64,000 nt of DNA. It comes from Scenedesmus sp. ARA3 (taxonomy: Eukaryota > Chlorophyta > Chlorophyceae > Sphaeropleales > Scenedesmaceae). The position numbers were made by a program, and so were the translations under genes. Where the stretch lies: positions 186,001-250,000 of the forward strand of contig RWJK01001707.1 of the NCBI GenBank assembly GCA_004335835.1, read 5' to 3'. Each line of letters opens with the position of its first letter. Positions within the stretch are counted from its first letter, which is position 1. Shown piece after piece: positions 11,490 through 40,134 of the stretch. Below the pieces are notes generated by a model. The model saw nothing but the letters and a program-made list of their open reading frames with translations. It was not told the origin of the DNA and searched no databases.

Positions 11490-13097
11490 ATGCGTGCTTC
11501 TGCGCTACGAGTAGGGGCACAGCTCTCGGCCAGCACCAGTGCCACCGGCAAATCCATTTGGATGTCTAGCGGCCCGGGCAAAGTAGCAGCTCACAAGAAC
11601 ATAGATGTAGTGGCTAATGACGCAGCCAGCCTGGGCAAACTGTATGAGGTGGTGAAGAAGGCTCAGCACCAGTCACAAGGCAGCCTCTCCGCGCAGCAAG
11701 TGCAGGAGATATGCGGCGTTATAGGTGGGCAGATGCGTCTGATTCGGTGGTCCTGCGGTAAATCAGTGACACTGTGCATGCTGCAGCAGTGGCAGCAAGC
11801 GCTAGGCTGGGCCAGCATCAGAAGTTGCTGTGCTGTTGCATGTTGCTATTGCTGTTGCTGCTGCTGCTGCGCCCACTCTGTTGGCTCTTTGTTTCATGTT
11901 TGTTAGGGATTGACCGTGCTGAAGCTGTGTTGACTGTCCTGACTTTGCTGCAGAAAACATTCCGCTGGAGGAGTTGGGCCTCGATGCAGCTTTTGGACAG
12001 GTCAGCTGCGCAACACATGCAGTGGCACGCATGACATCATGCTGCAGCTGTTTTCAATAGAAACCAGCAAGCAGCATCAAATGACGGTATTTCAACGCAC
12101 TGCAGTGGCAGCACAGCAATGTAGTGTGCTACAGAAACATCAGCAGCCAGCGGGCTTTGCATGAAGGATGCAGGCAGAGCAACTGTGTTGCATCAACGGA
12201 CTAACATGGTGCCACAGCTCACAGCCGGGAGCGGCAACAGATCAGTGACAGTTCTTGCAACAGTACTCAGCTTGGCTGTTGTCACGGGCGTCAAGCTCAG
12301 CATGCAGCTGAAGCTTCCATCGCGCTGCGTTGCTGTGTGCTCTGCAGGCTATGGCGTATGGCACAGCAGGAGCTGCCAGGGAGTTGCGGTTCAGGATGCG
12401 GCGGAGAGGCAGCAGGTGGGCAGCATGCAGTCAGATGCGCAAGCGCTTGTCAAGCATTAACGTGGCTGCAGCTGCTGCTGGTATGTGGTGGTGCAGCGGG
12501 CTGAAACGGCAGCTGCCCGCCAGGCAGTGTGCAGCACTATACAGCTGGATGTGAGCAGTGTGTCATGCGGCTGTGCTGTTGCAGTTCAGCTGGCAGCAGC
12601 AATATACACCGCAGCAACAAGCAGCGGAGGCCGGCGCAGGCGAGCAGCTAGGGTTATACCAACCACCAAGGTGTTTTGCAGCCAGCATAGCGACAGCAGT
12701 GTATGGCTCTACAGTCCACACCAAGTCTGACGCTGCATGCAGCAGCAAGCGGCTACTCTCAAGCTGGCCCCTACCTTGTGATCACAGTGTTTGCGTTGAT
12801 GTGCTGCTGATGTGTGTATTGGCGGTGGTGCTGCTGCAGGGGCACCGTCACGTACCTAGACATACATGACGACCCCACCATGACCATCGGCATCTTCCAG
12901 CTGCCGCCGGGCTCCCGCATGCCGCTGCATGACCACCCGGGCATGACCGTGTTCAGCAGGTGCGGCTGTGGCGTTGCAGCTGAGCAGTGACAATGTCGAT
13001 GTTTGTGCTGCATGGCCATCCGAGTACATGCTGCTGCATGACATGCATGCTGCTGCCTGACCACCCGGGCATGACTGTGTTCAGCAGTGTAATCACA

Positions 13098-27084: not shown

Positions 27085-30010
27085 ATGGCTGGTGGTGCGA
27101 TATTATCTGGACCTGGTGGCAGGTCATCACAATATAACAGGGGCAGGATCACATTCTCCGTCCTGCTCGCATGTTTCGTGGGTGCCTGTACTGGACTGGT
27201 GTTTGGGTGAGCTGCGATCCGAGCAGCATGAACCGCAAACAGCAAGAAATATCTAAGAAGGCGTGCCAAGAGAATATCACGGTCTAAGCAGGCATAGCCG
27301 GGACTCAAAGCCGGTCAAACATGCACGGATGCAACTTTGCACTCACCCAATCGCTGCTGCTCGCAGTTACGATATTGGTATCGCTGGAGGGGTGATTTCG
27401 TGAGTGTATTATGGCAATCAGTGATGACTCAAATGCATTTGTCCCGCTGTCATGTGGGAGCAACAGCAGTCAGGCGGCCTGTGGTGTCTGCATGCAGTAG
27501 GTGGAATTAATGCAGGCAGGGATGCTCACAGCCTGCACAGCAAGCAATAGCTGATGAACGTGTTCTGTTGCTTATGTATGTACTGTTCTGCACCAGGTAC
27601 CCTGATTTCCAGCGGCGCTTTTTCCCCCAAGTAGGTGCACGGCCCTTTTCAGGTGCCAGATTGGCGGCGTGCGTGTTTATGCCTATCGCCCGGCGCATGC
27701 ACAGCTGCATAGCTGATCATCCACACAGGCGGCTAAAGCGGATCTAGGCTGATAGATTTGAGCAGAGTGCTTGGCCTGTAAAAAACAATCACCCTTACCT
27801 GCTGGCAGCCATGGCACCTTGTCAGGCTACTCAAACGGGCGCGAAGGAGCCTGCAGCTCGAACTTCTCCCTGCCAGTCATGCCTGCTGGATGCTTTTCAG
27901 CACATCAGCACTTGATGTCAGCCTTGGCACCTGCCAGCCCACTTGGTTGATGCTGTTGCTCTCCCGTGCAGGTGCCCCAGCACCATGCTGAAAAGCACCC
28001 CGTTTGCCAGTCTGTGCCCGTCCTACACCCTATTGACAACCTTTCTATACCTACATGTGGTTTAGTGTCTCATGCAGGTGCTGGAACACCACGCTGACAA
28101 GCACGCCTTCTGAATGTACAACGACCCGCTGCTGCATCTGCTGCCAAGACATGCGAAAACCTCCTATCAAATAACCACAAGCACTTACAGCCTGACCACC
28201 CCCCCCCCTCCCCGCCTTCTCTGCAGGTGCTGGAGGTCGCTGACGAGGACGCCTTCTGCAAGGCTGCAGCTTTTGGAAAAGCTGTTTGTTGGACCCCCCC
28301 CCCTCCCTCCCGCTGACTGCATGTTTGTACTGCCTTTGCCTCCACACAGGTGCTGGAGGCCCATGCCGACAAGGACGCCTTCTGCAAGTACAACGACCCG
28401 CTGCTGCAGCTCTTTGTCAGCGTGCTGTTCCTGGCGGGCATTGTGGGCGCATTCCTGGGCTCCTTCACCGCCAAGCAGTGGGGCAGGCGGCCCACCATGA
28501 TGCTGGGCGGGCTGTGCTTCCTGATCGGGGCCGTGCTGATGGCGCCGGCGGTGCACGTGGCCATGCTTATCATCGGGCGCGTCGTCATGGGGCTAGGTGA
28601 GCTGCACGAGGACTGGGCAGAGGCTGTTGCTGCTGCTGTGGGTAGCTGTTAATTGATATGTGTCCATGGTCATCTCTTAAGCAGTTTCTATTGGTAGAGA
28701 GGAGGTAGAAAGCTGTGCTGGCAGCTGCACGTATCAAATCACACCCTGACGTATGGACAGGTATTGCAATCGAGCTAAGCGTTTGGAGGGTTAACATTCT
28801 GCACCGCACTGTCCTGCTCTGCACTGCATGTCTTAATTCATAAGAGCCTTACCCAAAGCCAGCAGCTGCTATAGCTGATACACAGGGCGCTGACCTACAA
28901 CCTGCTCTGCTGCTGTGTGCTGTCTGTTGTGTACTTTGATGCGTAGGCATGGGCATCCGCGTAATGTGTGCTAGGCAAGCAGCTTTGTGAGATGACAGAA
29001 TGTGCTGCTGTGCTTTTTGTGGTGCTGCTGGTTGCTGTCACTCGCAGGCGTGGGCATCTGCGTGATGTGTGGGCCGCTGTTCCTGTCGGAGCTGGCGCCC
29101 TACCACCTCAGGGGTGCTTTCAACACACAGTTCCAGGTACGCTGCACGTGACGGCACACCAAGAGCTCACACCAGAGAACGCCGGCTCCACTGGGTGTGG
29201 TAGCAGCATGTCGTTCTTAGCCCTTCCTCGCTTGTGGTGTGACGCAACTCAGAACGCCACACATCTGGAGGTAACAAGGCTGATCCACTAACAGCCAAAA
29301 GGACAATTACTTGTGTTCAGCAACCACTAAGCACTGCTCCCAGTAACTGCTGCCCCTTTCCAAGATTCATCAACAGCTGTTCATCACCATAGGCATCTTG
29401 GTGCCACTTGCTGCTGACACCCATATTACAACACTGCCCCTGTTGCTGCTGCTCTCTCTGACCGCCCCGCCCGCAGCTGTTCATCACCATCGGCATCCTC
29501 GTCGCGCAGTGCATCAACTACAGCAACCAGAACTACGAGTGGGGCTGGCGGCTCAACCTGGGGCTGGCCGGGCTGCCCGCGGCGCTGCTGATGGTGGGCG
29601 CGGCGCTGGTGCCAGAGACGCCCGCCCACCTGGTGGAGGTGGGGCGCGAGGAGCAGGGGCGGCAGGTGCTGCGCAGGATCCGCGGGGCGGAAGGTATGAA
29701 GATACCGTCAGAGTTCAATCATTACATGGCTTCAGGTGGAGCCGAGTACATGCAGAGCAGCAGGGATTGCAGCTACAGCAGCAGCGGCAGCAGCCGCAGC
29801 AGCCGCAGATTGAAAGGAGTAGGCAGTCAGCCACTGCTGCTCCGCTTGCTGCACTTCTACAGTAGAGGGTGTGTGCTGCCCCTTAACATCAGTGAAAGTT
29901 GTGTACGCAATTGTCTGTGTGCCTAATGCTGCTGTTGCCCTCTGCAGACATGAAGGCGGGACATCAGCAATGTTGCTGTGTGCTGCAGAGTCTGTGTACT
30001 CGTGTCTCCC

Positions 30011-30043
<33 letters not shown>

Positions 30044-33000
30044 CACTGCTGCTGCTCAATCAGTGCTCGCTGCTGTGCAGACGTGGAGGTGGAGCTGCAG
30101 GACACTAAGGACGCTGCCGCCTGCTGCTGTTTTAGCGCTGCGCCTTTCTGCCGTTGCCTGTTCGCCATTTCCACGATGCTGTATGCAGATGATATGGTGC
30201 TCATGGGTTGCTGTACACTGCTGTCAGGAAGAGCTTGAATGCATGCTCAAGATTGTGGATGACATTTGCAACCAAATGGGTATGTGTAATAATGAGAGAG
30301 GATAGTTACATGTGGGTCCTGGCACCATCTTGGATGGTATGAGCCACAACAGGTTGAACACACAGGTCTGAGACCAGAAAAGGAGAGTGAGCACCGTAAA
30401 ACACACTGCACACCCTTGAGCACCAAACCTTTAATGCCAGCAAGACAGAGTTGTTGGCTCTGGCACCATCATGTGATGGCTCGCTGCCGCAAGGCGTGCA
30501 GCTGTCTGGGGGTGTCGCAAGCCATGTGCCTAGCTTCAAGTGTCTGGGTGGCATTGTGGATACAACCACACTTGTGAGCAGAAGTATGTGCCTGCATAGG
30601 TAAGGGCAAATGCAGGTTTGCGCAGATGCAAAGACTCTGGGGAATAAAGAACATGTCTGTGAGTGTGAAGATGCGCTGCTGCAATGCTCATGTGTTGCCA
30701 ATCTCATGTTTGCCATTGAGACATGGGCTTTGACTAGACAGCAGACGGAGAGCCTTGGGTGTGTACTTTCTAGCTGCTTGCGGCAGCTGTTATGTGTGTG
30801 GCTCTCCGATAGACAGTCTGGTGGATATCAAGAAGCAGTGCCGCACAGTCAGCCTGGCACATCACCTTTCAGCGGCTCGCCTGAGGTGGCTAGGTCATGT
30901 TGTGCGCATGGATGAGGGCAGGATGCCCCATGTTGCTTTGTTTCTGCAATGCATGGAGCGGCTAAGCGGCCTAGGGGCAAGCCCCCAGTTAGGTGGCAGG
31001 ATTGTGCACAAGCAATCTGCAGCAGCTAGGATTCCCTCATCAAATGGATGGCCTGCGGTGTTACTGTCACATGAGGGGTGCATGGCGGTCTATGGTCTAA
31101 CGGGGTTTCACACCCTGATGCTGTGGGGGCTCCTGTGCAGGCCCCGTGCTCCAACTCCCCCTCTACGCAGCAGCAGCAGCAGCCACTCTTAAGACAGCAG
31201 GGCCTGCAGCAAATGTACCCGGCTTGTAACGAGCCGTCTATGATTGTTGGTGTGGGTTGGCAGTGCCCCTGTGGAAGGATTCATCCAACGCGGGAATGCA
31301 CTGACGCGGTGGTCCAGATCAGGCTATCAGTGACTGAGGTTTATGTCGGACCACAGATTGAGAGCCCTACCAAGCAAGTGCTTGTGTGTTCAAGGTTTTG
31401 GCCGTATCTGGCCCTGACTGGTGGGTCTGCACTCACTGGTCAGGAATCACCATAGGTGATTTGGGAGTGGCTCCCTTTCTGGGTTCACCCTTTGCTAGAC
31501 AAACGTGTACTTTGTTGTATTGTCGTTGTTGCCATTCTGGCTGACAATTCTTATTGGTGTTGTTAGTTTGGGTTTTTGTCCAGATATGGAGGTGGAGCTG
31601 CGAGATAGTACGATTGCTGAGCAGCTCCTCAGCAGCAAAGACGGTGCATTTCAAACAGTATGTACACCCAGGCCGCCCTGCTGCCTTTCATTGGCTTGCA
31701 GACGTGGAGGTGGAGCTGCAGGACATCAAGGACGCTGCCGTTGCTGCTCGCAGCACGAAGGTCAACCCCTGGCGCGCCATCTTCAGCCGCAAGTTCACGC
31801 CGCAGCTGGTCACCATCGTGGCGCTGCAGGTCTTCAACCAGCTGGACGGCATCAACAGCATCATGTTCTACGCGCCACAGGTGGGCGGAGATCATGGTCG
31901 TAGGTACACTGCAAATTTGCAGCAATTACTTTGTCCTGTTTGCAAGTGATTCAAGGCCAGCTGGGGGGGAACAACATCATCATGTTCACATGCCGCAGGC
32001 GAGCGCATAATGATGGCATGAGTGTCACACAGTTTTGTATGCATCTTCTGTTCTGTCTGCACGTAGTTAGTGCCTTTACTTGCCTGCACGGTAGTTGCAT
32101 CGCATCACGGCGCTCACCTGTGTGAACATTCTGCACGCCTTGCCCTGCAGCGCGCCGCTGATTCTTGGCTGCGCCAAAACCAAACAGCTCTTTGGCACAA
32201 TTGGCTCCGGCCGCCGCAAAGCCGTCAATACGCATGTCATCATGCGTGTATGCATACTCTTGCATCAGCATTGTAAAACTTCTTGCACGCCCTGCCCTGC
32301 CTGCTGCTGCTGCATACCTGTGCGACATCTATTACACAAACCACAAACAGCTGTTTGACGCGATGGGCTTTGGCCGTCGCAAGGCCCTCGTGTTGCACGC
32401 CATCATGTGCTGCTGCACAGTCAGGCTGCTCAAGGTGCCCCACCGTATGAATCATGCTGCCTCATGTCCTGCCGTGCTGCCTGCTGCTGCGTGCGCAGCT
32501 GTTTGACGCGATGGGCTCCGGCCGCCGTGAGGCCCTCATGACGCACGTCATCATCGGCGCAGTCAACGTGGCCACCACCTTTGTGGCTGTCTTCACCGTC
32601 GACTCGCTGGGCCGCACCTTCTGGATGGTTGAGGCCTCTGCACACATGATGGCCTGCGAGGTCATCATGGGTGTGCTGATTGCGCTCAAGATGGACCCGG
32701 TCACGGGCGCCATTCCGAAGGACATCACAGTTGGGCTGATCGTGGTGGTGTGCGTGTTCATCGCTGGCCACGCCTGGGGATGGTGAGCGCAGCAAGCGCA
32801 CACAGCGCCACATGCCTGTTAGGTGCAGCGACGGGGTGTGCCTGCCAGGCACGCTAGATGTCAAATGGCAGTTGGCTGACAGAACAGAGAGTCATGCAGA
32901 CAGTTGGCTACACATGTTACCGTGACTCAACACGTTGCGACAATGCAGCACCATGCGCAGCACTTTCTTTCATTGCCCTGCCCGCCGCTCTTCCTGTGTT

Positions 33001-34056
33001 GGCCGATTCTGTGCCCGTTTCTTCCACAGGGGCCCGATGCCATGGCTGGTGTGCTCAGAGGTGCAGCCGATGCACACGCGCGCGGCAGGCACTGCGCTGG
33101 CCACCATCGTGAACTTCATCCTCACCTTCATCATCGGGCAGTGCTTCCTGAGCATGCTGTGCTCCATGCGCTACGGCGTGTTCTTCTTCTTCGCGGGTGA
33201 GTGCTGCAGGAGGCTGCCTGCTGCGTCGTAGCATCAGCTGCCTGTAGCAGCTGGTTGCTTCTGGAAGTTTGCTGCCGCGGTGCTAGGCGGTGAGGCTTAC
33301 TGGGGTTTGGCTCGAATCCATTGTAACACATCAGGCTGATGTCATCAACCCTGTCACTTTGTGGCTTTGTGCCCAGCACCAGCTGCGTTCCTGGTGGTTG
33401 CCACACCTGCTGCTGGCATGTCAACAATACACCTGTTTGGTCCGGTCGCTGAAGTCCTGCCGTCCCGCTCTTATGCTGCAGGCTGGCTGGCATTCATGGG
33501 TGTTTACACATACTTCCTGGTGCCAGAGACAAAGGTGAACCAGCGCTGTGCAGACACGTTGATAGCAGGGTTGTCACATGAGTCAGCAACGCAGCTGAGG
33601 GCAGCCCCACATCATGCCCGATGTGTAGTGAATGTTGCAGCTTGCAGCACAGCTGTGTTTCTGCTGCGGGCAGGAAGTTTGCCTTCCTGTGCTGGGTCAA
33701 GGTGGTACCAGGTGCACATGCAGCTGCATGCTTCTCAGGTGTCACCTGTCACAAAATCCCTGCTTGCATGGCACACCAGCACTTTGATGTTTCATCACAG
33801 CCAACATCTGCCTCCGCCAAGTCACACGCCATCTTGTGCTGCTATTACCTCAAAACTACTCAAATAACAGGGAGTGCCAATCGAGGAGATCGAGTACAAG
33901 TTCCGCAACCACTGGGCCTGGGGCAAGCTCATGGCCAAGCACGACGCGGCCCAGGAGGCCAAGGTCGTGGACGACATCGCCGACGACCTCGCCGCCGCGC
34001 GCGGCACGTCGTCCTGCAAGGTGGACGTCGCAAAGAAGGGCAAGCCCGAGATGTAA
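27085..34056 (+). CDS. HUP/STP-type H+/hexose symporter (major facilitator superfamily)
   Basis: Twelve-helix sugar-proton symporter of the plasma membrane. Eleven exons: 27085-27206, 27367-27399, 27597-27630, 28350-28596, 29048-29136, 29477-29693, 31702-31880, 32499-32782, 33030-33196, 33482-33534, 33871-34056; 536 aa, the size of Chlorella HUP proteins. Motifs: first helix ending VFGYDIGIAGGVIS, KQWGRRPTMMLGG after helix 2, VPETPAHLVEVGREEQGRQVLRRIRG at the end of helix 6, QVFNQLDGINSIMFYAPQ in helix 7, VDSLGRTF, and VPETKGVPIEEIEYKFRNHWAW at the C-terminus. The substrate is inferred from the family. Introns 3 to 7 contain decayed copies of neighbouring exon ends, and intron 6 contains a LINE relic. 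It lies in the 18.4-kb contig whose placement is doubtful. Confidence 0.94.
27972..28010 (+). repeat. Exon echo: oldest copy of transporter exon 4 start
   Basis: After GTGCAG the segment reads VPQHHAEKHPVCQ against exon 4 VLEAHADKDAFCK. The most diverged of three intron-3 copies. Confidence 0.55.
28078..28143 (+). repeat. Exon echo: copy of transporter exon 4 start with stop
   Basis: Follows an intact ATGCAG acceptor. Reads VLEHHADKHAF, an in-frame TGA, then MYNDPLLHLL, against VLEAHADKDAFCKYNDPLLQLF in the true exon at 28350. The match covers about 66 nt. Confidence 0.85.
28227..28263 (+). repeat. Exon echo: second copy of transporter exon 4 start
   Basis: Follows a C-rich tract and CTGCAG. 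Reads VLEVADEDAFCK and then diverges. A matching C-run precedes the true exon (28293-28302), so the duplicated unit included intron sequence upstream of the acceptor. Confidence 0.85.
28947..28970 (+). repeat. Exon echo: copy of transporter exon 5 start
   Basis: After GCGTAG, 24 nt match the first 24 nt of exon 5 (29048) with three mismatches. Confidence 0.8.
29377..29403 (+). repeat. Exon echo: copy of transporter exon 6 start
   Basis: After CAACAG, 27 nt match the first 27 nt of exon 6 with four mismatches. The copy lies exactly 100 bp upstream of the true exon start. Confidence 0.85.
30081..30119 (+). repeat. Exon echo: near-identical copy of transporter exon 7 start
   Basis: Follows TGTGCAG. 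39 nt match the first 39 nt of exon 7 (31702) with two mismatches, then diverge. The LINE relic begins just after it, so this copy could also be a long target-site duplication. Confidence 0.85.
30150..31010 (+). mobile_element. Decayed non-LTR retrotransposon (LINE) reverse-transcriptase relic
   Basis: Frame-shifted pieces in order on the plus strand: the RT active-site motif MLYADDMVLMG (YADD at 30182-30193); the thumb-like FNASKTELLALAP and FKCLGGIVD (about 30429-30560); FAIETWALTRQQ (about 30711-30750); and RLRWLGHVVRMDEGRMPHVALF (about 30877-30945), the conserved C-terminal stretch of LINE reverse transcriptases. Endonuclease and 5' parts are missing and several frameshifts are present, so it is dead. 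It sits in intron 6 of the hexose transporter, in sense orientation. A Cys/His piece CPCGRIHPTREC near 31265-31300 may be part of it. Confidence 0.85.
31584..31619 (+). repeat. Exon echo: older copy of transporter exon 7 start
   Basis: After GTCCAG the segment starts ATATGGAGGTGGAGCTGC, against ACGTGGAGGTGGAGCTGC in exon 7, then decays. It lies 118 bp upstream of the true exon. Confidence 0.7.
31950..32000 (+). repeat. Exon echo: copy of the 3' end of transporter exon 7
   Basis: In intron 7, a segment with CAGCTGGGG, AACATCATCATGTTC and GCCGCAGGCG resembles the end of exon 7 (GINSIMFYAPQ) and its donor region. Confidence 0.6.
32188..32250 (+). repeat. Exon echo: first copy of transporter exon 8 start
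   Basis: After AAACAG, reads LFGTIGSGRRKAVNTHVIMRVC against LFDAMGSGRREALMTHVIIGAV in exon 8. The frame stays open. Confidence 0.85.
32351..32422 (+). repeat. Exon echo: second copy of transporter exon 8 start
   Basis: After AAACAG, the first 19 nt are identical to exon 8 and 10 of the first 57 differ. Reads LFDAMGFGRRKALVLHAIM in open frame. With the first copy and the true exon at 32499 it makes a three-member series. Confidence 0.88.
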
Positions 34057-35434
34057 CTTCGCGGTTCTTTCGAATGGGATATTTAAGTGAAGCTTGCAGC
34101 CTGCCGGGACCAAAGGGGTGCCTTGATTGAGTAGGAGGGGTGACAGCTGGCAGGCGCATTGCTGGAATCTGGGCAGTGCCAGCAGCTGCTGTGATGTTAC
34201 TAACTGAAAGCAGAGGGTCTCAGCATACGGCAAGGCCAGAAAGCTGCTGGTGTAGCAGAAGGGTTGTGTTTTGGGAAGTTCCTAGCTGGCAGGTGCTGGC
34301 ATCATCTGCTCTGGTTGCTGGCAGCCGCCATCAACTGCTGTGAAGCTCAATGCCACACCTTGGCGCCATGCAAGGACACACCATTAGTGCAAGAGGAGCG
34401 TAACCAGAATGGACAGCCATAGGTCTAGCTTGGTGGGGATCTTTGTGGCTGACATAGCTCCCACCAGGGAAGGCTGCTGTCGATTAGGGGTGACTGCATG
34501 ATGTCAAGAAGGTGAATAGCATATGCACATAGCAGCAGTCGCCCGCGTGCTAGGCATGCTACGGGGCGCGCAATGCAAGTTTTGACTTCTGCAAAGGCGA
34601 CTGTCTCAGCTGCTGGCACAAGGTGCTGCCGCAGAGGTTGTGTTCAAGTAGACACATGTCTATGCGGTTTACTGAATGTAGAGTGTGTGAGCACAATGCT
34701 GTGATGCACCTGCGCTTGTGCAACGTTTGCAGCGAGACATGCATGTGGCTGTACAGGCTTTTATGCCAATGCATTATCTAAAAGGTACGACACAGCTGTC
34801 CTTTACAACAGGCCCGTTGGCATGACAACATGCATGTGCTGCTGTGCTAGCCAGCTGGGCTGTCTGCTCAGCATTGCATGCAACAAGTTACATGCCGTCT
34901 TCTTAGTTAGCATGGTCCTTTCACCCTGCATGAGCATCCTATGGCTTTTGCTTGAGGCGCCCACTCCTTGTCACATGGCATATGTATAGTACGATTTTCA
35001 GCGTAGCTTACAACACCTAGTAGCCTGGACCATCCTCCTCCTCCCCTGCATGTAAGCTTGGTGTCATGCCACTGTACAGCTGTGTGGCTTGCATGCATTG
35101 TGCATCCTGCACTTGTGATTCACATCTGTACACAGACAGCCTGCTTTGTCAGGTGGTGTGACAAGTTACAATTTCTACAGCATCGCGGGCTTCTTCTGGC
35201 GCGCGTATGTAAAGAAAGAGGGTTATTGAGCCGAGACTCACGTCACTGTAACGTCGTGACAAACCCCCTACCATGAGTGCATTCGTGGCACGATGTCTGG
35301 GCAAACAACTGACACGGCCCAGGAGCCGTGCCGTCACATGCCACTTGTGCACCTGTAACACCTTGTTGATGGGTTGATGTTGATGGGTAACATGATGATG
35401 ACCTCATCATCATGCTATGGCTTAAATGGTAACC

Positions 35435-35482
<48 letters not shown>

Positions 35483-36156
35483 CCTGTAACACCTTGTGGG
35501 TGTCTACCTTCGTTCATCATGAACCACAGGTTTACACCCAACACCACATTGTGCAGCAGTGACAGGCTGCTGGACAGCAGCTGATGCGGCCCACGCAATG
35601 GACATACCTGTAGATGCAGAAAAGTGTGCAGGGCAGCGGGGTTGTTGGCTAGCCCTGGATGGGAAGCTGCGATCCCTGCGCATAGTCGTTACGTAGCTGA
35701 ACCGCCATGTAGAGCCCATGTGACCCCACGCAGCGCTCGCAAAGACATCACGATGTATAAAGACTTACAGATGTCTGGCATCTGCATCTCTCAGTAGTCT
35801 TGCACGTGCAACAGTAGTCTTGCTCGTGCACGAGTTTCTTGCCTGGCAGAGACAGTGCTGGTGCATGCACAGAGCGCTCTGCGCAGAGCATGCTAGCGTG
35901 AGCCGCCCCTTGCAGGTGGGCTGCTTTCTGCTCGTTGCTCGTTTGCTGCAGCAGCTGCTGCAGGCTCGAAGCCCTCAGGTTTTACTCCTGGCCGTACCAT
36001 TTATAAGGTATAAAGAGTTAGGGGGCGGTTTACTTGAGACTAAGACACTGAGTTAATATGAAGGGGGGTAAAGCGACAAGCAAGCTCGAATTGCATGTGC
36101 TCCAGGGGGGGTAAGCGGGAAGCAAAGTGGTCACTGCCAGTCAGCACACTGAACAG
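34057..36156. other. Region between hexose transporter and second gap
   Basis: Transporter 3' UTR and 2 kb with no recognisable gene. The only distinct structure is the ATG-rich microsatellite at 35435-35481. The sequence ends at the right edge of the doubtful contig. Confidence 0.45.
35435..35481. repeat. (TGA)n trinucleotide microsatellite
   Basis: About 16 uninterrupted TGA units. The flank shares GCTATGGCTT and a GTAAC(A/C)TGATGATG stretch with 19184-19220. Confidence 0.9.
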
Positions 36157-36206
36157 NNNNNNNNNNNNNNNNNNNNNNNNNNNNNNNNNNNNNNNNNNNN
36201 NNNNNN
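36157..36206. other. 50-N assembly gap
   Basis: Exactly 50 N. It separates the end of the 18.4-kb contig from the right part of a MITE. Confidence 1.
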
Positions 36207-36352
36207 ATGCAGTGTCAACCGTGTCATGGGCTAACCACAGCACACCACGTACTGGCGCGTATTTGGGCACGTATCAATACTCTCCAGGCAGCGTATTGCG
36301 TATCGCGTACCGCGTATCCAATACCATACGTATTGCGTATAGAGCAACCCTG
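36207..36352 (+). mobile_element. hAT-type MITE, right part, cut by an assembly gap
   Basis: Matches the last part of the complete element (26456-26601) and ends in the terminal repeat with one change (GCGTATAGAGCAACCCTG). It is followed by GTTTGCAC (36353-36360), the same octamer that precedes the left part at 17049. Its first 10 bases, ATGCAGTGTC, repeat the last 10 of the left part. The two parts are therefore one insertion. Confidence 0.92.
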
Positions 36353-36360
36353 GTTTGCAC

Positions 36361-37501
36361 AGCCAGCAGCAGCACATATGTGTGTGCACAGATGCGCTTG
36401 CATGTGCTGTCTGTAAGGCTGCAATGGGGCACCTAACACAGTGCAGGCAGAACAATGCACGGCTTAGTTCACACTGCATGATCAGCATTGTTGGCTTTCA
36501 GACGGCAACACCCGTTCCTCAGCTTGTGCTGTGAAAGTGCATGGCGCATTGCTTGCTTGCTGCAGCAGATCAAGTTCGCAGGGCGGCAGTTGGCTGCGTG
36601 CGGTGGGGCGTCTGTGTGCTTACTTGCGGCTGTGCACGGCTTGCGAATCTTCTTTGTCCTTCGCCTATGTTAGCAGCACTGTTGTACAAAATGCTATCTA
36701 CCTCTGACACCCGGCAGTGGCTGCTTTGCTGGTATCTGCCAGCTGTGGCAACACTATACTGCTGATTGCACTGTTTGGCGCCACATGCGTGCTTTTTTCA
36801 TGCTTGCCAGCGGCATGGAGACTTGTCGGAGAATTCAACCTTGTTCCCTGTGCAAGCAGCGGCTAGCTTGCCACATGTACTCTTTTGGTAGCCTATGGAT
36901 TAGGCTGCTGTTTTGCTGACAGCTTTTCAATGTAAGGGCAATGGCAAGTCCCCAGGTGGGTCGAGCAGCGGTTATGAGTTTAGCCCAGGCTTATTTTGTA
37001 ACCCCTTTCCTCTCACCCAAGAGTGCCGTGCAGGAACCTGCAAGCTGTGCTTTGCAGCTAAGGCGGCGCAGTAAGGAGTGATGGAAATCATGGAATGACA
37101 GCTGTCAGCGTGGACTGGCCTCTTTTCAATGGAGTTGCTCGTGCCTGGAGACTCCTGCAAGACTCCTGCCAGGGTTCTACACCCCAGCGCTGTAGCTGAC
37201 TCACCATGTCACTCACCCCACCGTGCCAAGGCCCTGCTTTGTGCTTATCAGTTGACAGCGATGTAGCTATGATAGAAACATCGCCCAACGCACCTGAACT
37301 CATGCGAGTGCCCGCTCAAGCCCTGCCAACTCAGCATTAAAAAGCAGCCGGTGCTGCAAGCAGCAGCTAGCGGTGTTTCTCCTGAGCCCGTGTGCATTGA
37401 TGTTTTGGTGCACTGAAATCATCACTGCTTGACCGTGGTGGGCATCGCCGAGATGGGGTTATGAGTTTCTCACCGCCCTGGTCTAGCAGCATTTCGGCAA
37501 C
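36361..37501. other. Intergenic region upstream of the carrier gene
   Basis: No coding exon or repeat recognised. Presumably it includes the promoter of the gene starting at 37502. Confidence 0.45.
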
Positions 37502-38393
37502 ATGGCACACGCGAATGATGCCCTAATCGAAGGTGTAGCAGGTGCTATAGGCGCTGTGATAGCTCTCACCTCTACCTACCCTTTGCTGACGGTGAGTCAG
37601 GCACCTGCAGCACCAGCACTGCTTAACAGCAGCAGCAGCGGGGCACAGCAGTGCATGCTGCAGCCGTGTGCTGTCTGCTGCAGACAGCACACGTCCAACT
37701 GCAACCACCGTCCCTTGCTGCCACCAATCGTTTCCTCCACAGGTTTCTACCCTGCGAGCGCTTGAGCATAAGGATGACGGCAGTGGGGAGAAGCAGTTGC
37801 AGGGCCGCCTGCGCCTGCTGCCAGGCCCCATACAGGATGTGATTGAGTTCACGCGCCAGCACTCCTGGAGGGCGCTGTTTGCAGGACTGCGGCCCGCAGT
37901 GGTGGCCACTGCCACCTCTCAGGGCGTGTACCATACTGTGTACTCTATGCTGCGGCAGATGGCAGTGGTGGGTAACAACAGCTGCCCGCCTGGCGCAAGC
38001 GCCTCAGATGCACAGTAACAACCATAGCAGCACGGCAGACTTGTTGTCCTTTGGCCATTTCTAGGTGGTAACGCAGCTGGTGCTGATCATTGGCAGCTAG
38101 CTGCGCTAGCTGTGCACTGATACACTGCTACCCATGCAAGCACGCGTAACACCCCGCGCATACGCATGCGTCCTTTCGTGCTGCTGCCACATGCAGGCTC
38201 ATCAGATGGCAGCCTTGCGGCAGCAAGCGCACGCGAAGCAGCAGCAGTACAGCCCGTCTGATGGCGGCAAGTCTGTGGGCATCAGCGTGGGTGCCTCCAT
38301 GCTGGTGGCGTCAGTGGCTGGCATGGTCAACGTGATGCTGACCAACCCCATCTGGTGAGGCGCAGCAGCAGCAGCAGCAGCAGCAGCGTTTTT

Positions 38394-38424
<31 letters not shown>

Positions 38425-40134
38425 TGCGGATGGCGGCAACGGTGCTACAAACAGCACCTGAAGTGGCTGCCGGCACAGCAGGGACAAACACCTGTTAGCT
38501 GGTCTCTGTCTGCAAGGCCTCCAGCGGTGTCCGGGGACAGCCAGTCGACCAGGGTGCTACAGCTGCAACACATGCCAGCCTGTGCACGTCGTGTGCTGTC
38601 AGACCTCCTTTGCTGTGCACTACTCTTGCCGTGCACCTCCTGCCGCAACTTGCAAAGAGCACAAACCATACCGCATGCTGCTGCACCACGCTGCACACTG
38701 GCTGGCATGCTGCCCTGCACATTCCATGTTTTTTTGTGCCTGCCGCTCTGCAGGGTGATAATCACGCAGATGCGTGTTCTGGCTTGCTGCCCTGCAAACA
38801 CCGCATGTGCTGTGCCTGCCGTGCTGCACCACACTGCAGGGTGGTCATCACGCAGATGCAGGCGCTGTCGCGGCAGCGCCCCGGCATGTCCACCCTATCC
38901 GTGGTGCGCCAGATGTACGCAGACCAAGGCCTGGGAGGCTTCTTCAAAGGCCTAGCTCCCTCCATGATTATGGTCATTAACCCCACCATACAGTACATTC
39001 TGTATGAGTCGCTTGTTGCTCGGGCGCTGGAGTGGCAGCGCAGCAGGAGGGCAGCACATGCAGCGCCGCGGCATGCCGCGGGACCTGCTGCCGCAGCAAC
39101 AGCAGCAGCAGCAGCGGTGCAGAGGCATGCCGGGGGTGCCGCTGCTGGAGGGAAGGCTGGCGGCATGGCGCTGGGTGCGCTGGATATCTTTGTGCTGAGT
39201 GCGCTTGCGAAGATCGGCGCGACGCTGGTGACGTATCCGCTGCTGGTGGTGAAGAACCGGCTGCAGGTAGGTGGATTGGCTGCGCTGTATTCTTGTGCAT
39301 GTGTTGATGACACGTGCTGCATCAGCAGGAGTAGCAGCAGCCATGCAACAGCTGCCAAACCGATGGGCTGGGGTAGGGCTGAGATGGCTGCAGAGGAGAG
39401 ACGCTCTGCTTGACATGGCTTGTGGAGGGTGCAAGCAGCTTCTTGCAGGGAGTTGTCTTGCAGTATTTGCAGAGCCTGCTTGTTGCATCAACCGACCCCA
39501 GCATCTACACGCAATGCTGCACTTGCTGCTCAGTGTGCGTTGTGTTTTTGTCATGTCTTTGTTTGCTTGTGTGTGCTGCTGCAGTCCATCAACCGCCACA
39601 CGCGCGAAGACATGAAGTACACCGGCGTGCTGGATGCAGTCAAGCGCATGCTGGCAGACGAGGTGAGTCAGCAGCAGCAGCTGGTGCAGCCATGCGATGT
39701 TAAGAGCTAGTCAACGAATATTATAACAGACACGTCTGTCAACAGCGTGGTTGCATTCGCCCAGCAGGCAAATGTCGCATGGCAAAATGTGCCATATCAC
39801 AATGGACGCCCGTGCGTGCGCAAGCTTTGGGGGTTGTGTCTGTGGGCCTGCCTGCAGGGCCTTGGCGGCTACTGTGCATGCGTGGCGTAGCATGTGGTGC
39901 ATGTTACAGTCGCTGGCACGCCCTCAATCGTGCACCTTCTCAAGATCCGGTTGGTGTGTTGTTGTCCTGCAGGGCCTGGGCGGCTTCTACAAGGGCATGC
40001 GCGTGAAGCTGCTGCAGACGGTGCTGGCTGCCGCGCTGCTGATGATGCTCAAGGAGGAGCTCTTCACAGCCACGCGGCAGCTGCTGAACATGACAGCCCC
40101 TGCAGGCAGCCGCAGGCGCATACAGCGGCGGTGA
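37502..40134 (+). CDS. Mitochondrial-carrier-family protein, peroxisomal NAD/adenine-nucleotide type
   Basis: SLC25-type carrier of three repeats of two helices. Six exons: 37502-37591, 37743-37967, 38197-38354, 38840-39266, 39585-39662, 39973-40134; 379 aa. Repeat 1 begins ALIEGVAGAIGAVIALTSTYPLLT, with YPLLT in place of the canonical Px[DE]xx[KR]. Repeat 2 has VNVMLTNPIWVVITQMQ and repeat 3 has ALAKIGATLVTYPLLVVKNRLQ. NPIWVV and YPLL variants are typical of the peroxisomal PMP34/PNC/PXN branch, which moves ATP, NAD or CoA, rather than inner mitochondrial membrane carriers. GLGGFFKGLAP and GLGGFYKGMRVKLLQ are the usual matrix-loop sequences. An Ala/His-rich insert (about 39050-39150) lengthens the loop before repeat 3. 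Substrate and organelle are inference. Confidence 0.88.
38754..38783 (+). repeat. Exon echo: copy of carrier exon 4 start within an 86-bp tandem duplication
   Basis: After CTCTGCAG the segment reads GGTGATAATCACGCAGATGC against GGTGGTCATCACGCAGATGC in exon 4. Upstream intron sequence is duplicated too: GCATGCTGCCCTGCA near 38706 and GCTTGCTGCCCTGCA near 38782. A unit of about 86 bp spanning intron tail and exon start was therefore copied in tandem. Confidence 0.88.
39858..39892 (+). repeat. Exon echo: copy of carrier exon 6 start
   Basis: After CCTGCAG, GGCCTTGGCGGCTACT and GCATGCGTG match exon 6 GGCCTGGGCGGCTTCT and GCATGCGCGTG, with a short deletion between. It lies 115 bp upstream of the true exon. 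Confidence 0.78.

Follow-up and report, generated by a model that had tools for sequence, protein, structure and literature searches.

What could place copies of exon edges inside the introns next to them? The question is raised by a window of 64,000 nucleotides from Scenedesmus sp. ARA3 (contig RWJK01001707.1, positions 186,001 to 250,000; C1306:186001-250000 in the assembly analysed here, which has 87.27 Mb in 1,567 contigs). Three of its genes, for a hexose/sugar transporter, a mitochondrial-carrier-family protein and a PCO/ADO-family protein, have introns holding partial copies, here called echoes, of the start of the next exon or the end of the previous one (Table 1). These copies are repeats in direct orientation with a recurrent spacing; they occur on both acceptor and donor sides, form arrays, and include units that join intron with exon. 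They are best explained, we think probably, by small tandem duplication, generic and very active in the Tetradesmus obliquus nuclear genome.

The longest series is in the transporter gene. Each of its 10 introns was locally aligned with the next exon start (up to 100 nt) and the previous exon end, using 200 dinucleotide shuffles as the control, and individual echoes were listed by iterative masking. The next-exon scores of introns 3–7 (44, 18, 20, 37 and 38) were each reached by 0/200 shuffles; those of introns 1, 2, 8, 9 and 10 were reached by 55–181 of the 200, i.e., there was no echo signal. When compared with previous-exon ends, only intron 7 stood out among the 10 (score 22, 0/200 shuffles). 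Nine next-exon echoes are spread over five introns (3, 1, 1, 2 and 2 in introns 3–7), and one previous-exon echo is found in intron 7. In eight of the nine acceptor-side echoes the copy opens with the first base of the exon and has AG immediately before it, as the first-pass annotation of this DNA had described; the ninth (31587) begins at exon base 4. They align over 24–62 exon nt at 70–92% identity. The transporter model matches the public protein OEZ86_014328 over its full length at a displayed 100%, yet one Gly/Ser difference is visible. This protein and the carrier match OEZ86_014462 are both from T. obliquus, the species to which the window is therefore assigned. The two belong to another assembly, and since the public models of the two genes use one copy per exon, their window echoes are intronic. 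The exon 5 echo most likely arose in the T. obliquus lineage, because the methionine it encodes is the residue of the T. obliquus protein, with glutamine in all 11 others aligned (12 of the 120 listed proteins were aligned).

The same annotation had named echoes for eight introns of the three genes (counted there as at least seven), all within 27972..39892. Six of these introns are solid, the carrier exon 4 case is fair and the carrier exon 6 case weak; the transporter and carrier echoes lie in that range, and the PCO echo lies outside it. The PCO echo scores 37 against a maximum of 18 among 500 shuffles. The exon portion of the carrier exon 4 echo has a score of 16, reached by 3/300 shuffles, and its intron tail matches as well, in agreement with the proposed unit of intron tail plus exon start. 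The exon 6 candidate begins at exon base 1, and its score of 12 was reached by 27/300 shuffles, which alone is not significant.

Echoes are not limited to this contig. All gene models beyond the transporter and carrier came from a small home-made gene hidden Markov model (HMM) trained on 292.8 kb from 12 contigs. Six contigs (C459, C273, C968, C198, C106 and C1299) had been chosen for sugar-transporter matches and five others were picked regardless of gene content. Up to 80 nt from each exon end were compared with the adjacent introns, echoes being called at a score ≥16, with reverse-complemented and shuffled introns as controls; for exons <80 nt the start and end queries are identical. Of 409 predicted introns, 51 had an echo, whereas the reverse-complement control gave 3; echoes were present on 9/12 contigs, including 4/5 of those picked regardless of gene content. 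These counts are lowered by echoes that the HMM still predicts as exons (e.g., 28227, 30081 and 32351) and raised by high-identity 'echoes' that are possibly unrecognised true exons. Exon starts were found in the upstream intron in 28/382 cases (0 reverse-complement, 0 shuffled) and exon ends in the downstream intron in 36/393 (3 and 2), so that acceptor and donor sides are affected about equally. The excess is weaker for exon starts in the downstream intron (17/380 versus 3 reverse-complement and 1 shuffled) and for exon ends in the upstream intron (17/385 versus 2 and 0). Within the up to 80 nt compared at each exon end, copies of at least 80% identity in an adjacent intron cover 2,228 of 102,701 predicted exonic nt, or about 2.2%; by a different method, figures given in PMC9013439 are 0.08% for fly, 0.06% for worm and about 2% for human, a species with much longer introns.

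If the echoes come from local duplication, then direct repeats should dominate at short distances, and this is what self-comparison gave (score ≥20): direct to inverted matches numbered 155/1 at offsets of 10–250, 81/0 at 250–500 and 7/4 at 4–8 kb. Offsets in the BLAST comparison peak at 120–135 bp, with a bump at 225–255. BLAST under-reports very short periods, and the scarcity of offsets <75 was rechecked by a window-identity scan made without it, which gave the same peak and bump for exon-containing repeats. Noncoding-only repeats are few: 14 of 27 pairs lie at offsets 75–135 by BLAST, and the scan groups them at 15–45 and 105–135. The exon-containing repeats clearly have a preferred unit; the noncoding-only ones, few as they are, likely have one too. 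The intron flank takes part in the unit, its extension exceeding the 95% null in 12/20 anchored acceptor and 17/28 anchored donor echoes. Among 15 long local alignments, 13 have noncoding columns, and these are 68–94% identical, mostly somewhat less than the exon-containing columns in alignments that have both (an exception is C777 9286, with 86% for exon-containing and 89% for noncoding columns). Homology over the whole unit, intron and exon both matching, is seen in several of the long alignments and in the carrier exon 4 echo, and is not seen in most high-identity echoes. Insertion at AG sites of exon pieces alone was set aside, because tails are residually homologous in the echoes just counted and travel with the unit in a donor-side array (below) and in the long alignments.

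Under the tandem-duplication explanation, short segments would be duplicated frequently and locally, with a preferred unit of ~125 bp, mostly 75–180 bp. A unit straddling a splice site would produce the order intron tail, exon start, intron tail, exon start, and its mirror image at a donor. The copy adjoining the rest of the exon would keep working, selection keeping one splice site, while the other would become an intronic echo; each duplication would lengthen the intron by one unit, and unequal exchange could expand the repeats into arrays. The duplication itself would not be splice-directed. Selection against disrupted exons, together with better preservation of exon parts, would make echoes at splice edges the most visible class, and the duplications may perhaps be caused by nick or break repair. 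The first-pass annotation had also proposed a recurrent local duplication leaving one working copy and others of different ages, which the sample bears out in many genes. Its further suggestion that introns grow in this way is plausible: the median length is 390 nt for introns with an acceptor echo (n = 28) and 214.5 nt for those without (n = 354), a difference confounded by detectability. The process fits the long introns of T. obliquus, whose mean of 462 bp stands beside 230–302 bp for four other green algae in one table of PMC5966456.

Several results count against a generic duplication followed by simple decay. One set concerns the exon part of the echoes, whose identity to the real exon is denoted S. 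In the best echoes it is 90–100% identical, with an intron part far more diverged; tandem duplication with neutral decay predicts a tail roughly 90% identical for an exon part at 95%. The decay simulation took in 42 of the 48 anchored echoes, those with ≥30 exon nt and free of N, and assumed an indel rate of 0.2 per substitution that was judged by eye against the long alignments. At S ≥0.9 the observed flank extension was 13.4 against 53.6 expected, and 14/16 echoes reject (combined p 1.4e-14), so that strict neutral sequential duplication is rejected for this class. Echoes at S 0.8–0.9 deviate mildly (3/15 reject, combined p 0.0019) and those at S <0.8 fit neutral tandem decay (0/11 reject, p 0.26), nonsynonymous differences outnumbering synonymous ones in these older echoes. 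The idea that non-working copies decay therefore stands for the older echoes and fails for the most similar ones. Synonymous to nonsynonymous differences number 40:23 at S ≥0.9 (26 pairs), 24:28 at S 0.85–0.9 (12 pairs) and 73:133 at S 0.7–0.85 (21 pairs), the first and last differing by Fisher's test (p 1.3e-4). Array members were counted several times in the flank-extension, synonymous/nonsynonymous and decay-simulation tallies, and a few of the high-identity pairs may involve true exons that the gene models missed.

Two arrays display this preservation between echoes as well. On the minus strand of L029:7985-8881, one intron of a gene that we take to be, probably, a calcium-dependent protein kinase (Pfam EF-hands were found in the gene fragment searched) holds seven acceptor echoes that copy the initial 54 nt of the exon downstream and are spaced 115–128 bp apart. 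Their exon parts are 83–96% identical pairwise and 0.91–0.96 identical to the real exon part, while the tails are 33–72% identical in a multiple alignment, with 2/28 tail pairs above the 99% null in pairwise global alignment. AG is kept by 6/7. The donor-side array (C1306, L017:1390-2358) has six echoes and a copy taken as the real exon end. Here a well-conserved 48-nt exon part is flanked by intron blocks that reappear in changing combinations, as expected of unequal exchange within the exon part, and S is 0.92–1.0 among all copies except one old echo, regardless of the neighbouring intron block.

Gene conversion from the working exon, via DNA or cDNA, might re-copy the exon part onto old echoes while their tails diverge. 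Both arrays look as this would predict, and the idea is a possible one, held tentatively. Against it, no direct conversion tract was seen in these data, the synonymous bias would be unexpected without selection against conversion in the reverse direction, into the exon, and tracts of 50 nt are short for gene conversion. A broader proposition, for which we would claim about the same tentative standing, is that exon-edge copies are actively kept similar to the exon, by exon-directed conversion or by use of the echo splice sites, and are maintained arrays, not passive fossils; such conversion might use an RNA or cDNA template and would then end where the exon meets the intron. Tandem duplication leaves the preservation in the best echoes over, and for this residue gene conversion from the neighbouring exon within arrays is favoured, with low confidence.

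The exon parts could instead be functional, serving as used splice sites or alternative exon edges (decoys or alternative isoforms) while the rest of the tail drifts. The synonymous lean at S ≥0.9 would suit this, as would the AG of the EF-hand echoes and the many echo splice sites that score like real ones, though retention of AG would also be expected by chance at moderate divergence. Acceptor echoes, however, generally have no second splice site at their end, the second exon 4 echo of the transporter has an in-frame stop, and echo peptides are absent from the public proteins of both window genes. Judged on these features of the sequence, such a function appears unlikely as the general explanation. 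A related idea, that acceptor echoes ending in a donor are mini-exons, was rejected, there being few GTs and no pattern.

Rather less credible still is a duplication directed to splice sites, for example by transcription- or splicing-coupled breakage at exon edges, which would account for the exon excess among repeats. Of 35 loci with repeats of at least 90% identity, 22 contain or adjoin an exon edge, 8 are exon-only and 5 noncoding-only; the last class falls short of the ~42% that a 120-bp unit placed at random would give, and 30/35 loci touch an exon. With loci chosen by intron-derived similarity alone, 18/22 touch an exon against 56% expected (p 0.017). Without four self-overlapping arrays, in which intron identity is invalid, the figure is 14/18 (p 0.09), and the exon excess by this intron-only measure is borderline. 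Exon parts are also easier to detect since they remain similar, and noncoding-only repeats, though few, share the size range. Their spacing rests on few cases, the shuffled control giving 10 hits against 14 at 105–135; this control was not clean, as blocks containing masked letters stayed unshuffled. Better exon-part preservation, together with selection against duplications inside exons, can produce much of the apparent centring. The earlier claim that the process is centred on splice sites is not supported in the form given, and a true preference may exist.

An assembly artefact, in which pieces of a diverged second haplotype or strain were joined beside the real exon edge, is very improbable. 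It would yield synonymous exon differences and diverged tails, and the assembly does contain N gaps. The echoes are, however, of several ages, one with a stop, and seven with different tails share one intron; neither the transporter exon 4 region nor the EF-hand array recurs in the assembly, apart from a 45-nt match (87%) to the former. Sphaeropleales cells are called basically haploid in PMC5966456, which also speaks against an artefact, though diploid characters are cited there for Monoraphidium. An origin from mobile introns (introners), or from transposons whose insertion left long target duplications, can practically be dismissed. The unit size is regular and transposon-like DNA is present in transporter intron 6, but genome searches with two echo stretches, the transporter intron before exon 4 and the EF-hand array, brought up no dispersed family, unlike the intron 6 pieces, which do have dispersed copies.

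Small tandem duplication, as favoured here, has relatives among known systems. Tandem exon duplication (PMC9013439 and PMC12343006), whose intronic exon copies can be degenerate or lack annotation, likewise puts exon-like sequence into introns of its own gene by local duplication. The echoes differ: most are cut-off exon edges bearing a single splice site, they come in series, their preferred unit is ~125 bp, and the exon part of the best copies has outlived the intron part. Duplication of whole exons with both splice sites is not the pattern seen, acceptor echoes being mostly 5′ fragments without a consistent donor, and the EF-hand echoes have no GT directly after the exon part. Intron gain through tandem duplication of an AG/GT proto-splice site (PMC2891723) also couples duplication with splice motifs. 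That process creates a new intron inside an exon, whereas in this alga it is existing introns that lengthen, with no gain of a new one: the window echoes lie within introns, and the public models of both genes show no new intron inside a former exon, keeping one exon copy. Repair of breaks that have overhangs, or of nicks lying close together, yields small tandem duplications (PMC8355091) that are similarly short, direct and without a mobile element; that work concerns induced breaks in mouse and human cells and short (<100 bp) insertions.

In the open-licence PMC papers searched we did not find a description of echoes in about 1/8 of the sample's predicted introns, often serial, built on a preferred unit and having an exon part that persists longer than the tail. 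The maintenance of exon parts is the new element; either conversion focused on exons or splicing at the echo sites would account for some of it. The echoes also resemble minisatellite arrays that undergo unequal exchange, with head-to-tail units, copy-number change and shuffled unit types; echo units, however, lie across splice sites, and only their exon part remains similar. Intron lengthening is often attributed to transposons; in this genome introns appear to be extended by small duplications, one unit after another, and the exon-edge fossils left behind can be dated with no need of an outgroup. Should homogenisation of the exon parts truly reach as far as the splice site, it would be direct evidence of exon-limited conversion in a nuclear genome, which would bear on intron loss and gain.

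Table 1. Genes, echoes and other features of the 64,000-nt window
Feature	Position	Strand	Details
Hexose/sugar transporter gene, 11 exons	27085..34056	+	hand-built in-frame model; T. obliquus OEZ86_014328; Pfam Sugar_tr
Transporter exons 1–6	27085-27206, 27367-27399, 27597-27630, 28350-28596, 29048-29136, 29477-29693	+	
Transporter exons 7–11	31702-31880, 32499-32782, 33030-33196, 33482-33534, 33871-34056	+	
Exon 4 start echo 1	27972..28011	+	40 nt, 70%; preceded by gcag
Exon 4 start echo 2	28078..28139	+	62 nt, 85%; preceded by gcag; TGA in the exon's reading frame
Exon 4 start echo 3	28227..28262	+	85%; preceded by gcag
Exon 5 start echo	28947..28970	+	24 nt, 88%; preceded by gtag
Exon 6 start echo	29377..29402	+	26 nt, 88%; preceded by acag
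Exon 7 start echo	30081..30128	+	92%; preceded by gcag
Dispersed high-copy repeat, ~145 bp	30293..30436	not assigned	intron 6, between echoes
Older LINE-like dispersed repeat	30698..31522	not assigned	intron 6
Older exon 7 start echo	31587..31637	+	exon nt 4-54, 71%
Exon 7 end echo	31957..31998	+	intron 7, 79%
Exon 8 start echo 1	32188..32243	+	56 nt, 79%; preceded by acag
Exon 8 start echo 2	32351..32406	+	56 nt, 84%; preceded by acag
Mitochondrial-carrier-family gene, six exons	37502..40134	+	exon 2 at 37743-37967; T. obliquus OEZ86_014462 99%; Pfam Mito_carr
Carrier exon 4 echo	38697..38773	+	intron tail (~38697-38753) and 20 exon nt (38754-38773)
Weak candidate echo, carrier exon 6 start	39858..39873	+	preceded by gcag
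Predicted exon, PCO/ADO-family gene	12840..12959	+	gene HMM; Pfam PCO_ADO
Echo of the end of that PCO exon	13045..13087	+	43 nt, 93%
Assembly gap	36157-36206		50 N

The carrier may be peroxisomal NAD carrier-like, judging from the names of its weaker matches. Of the two dispersed elements in transporter intron 6, the ~145-bp repeat has at least 34 other copies at 92–99% identity among the matches listed and is possibly a SINE or MITE (short interspersed or miniature inverted-repeat element). The older repeat has relatives at 76–80% identity on five contigs among the matches listed, and its LINE (long interspersed element) label comes from a YADD-like reading upstream of the repeat, which we take to be the relevant motif.

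At one further locus (L009:2994-3361), an echo and the real exon encode an identical 33 residues but use different codons, AGC and TCT, for one serine. This serine difference suggests that both copies have long been under coding constraint, and the echo may be a true alternative exon.

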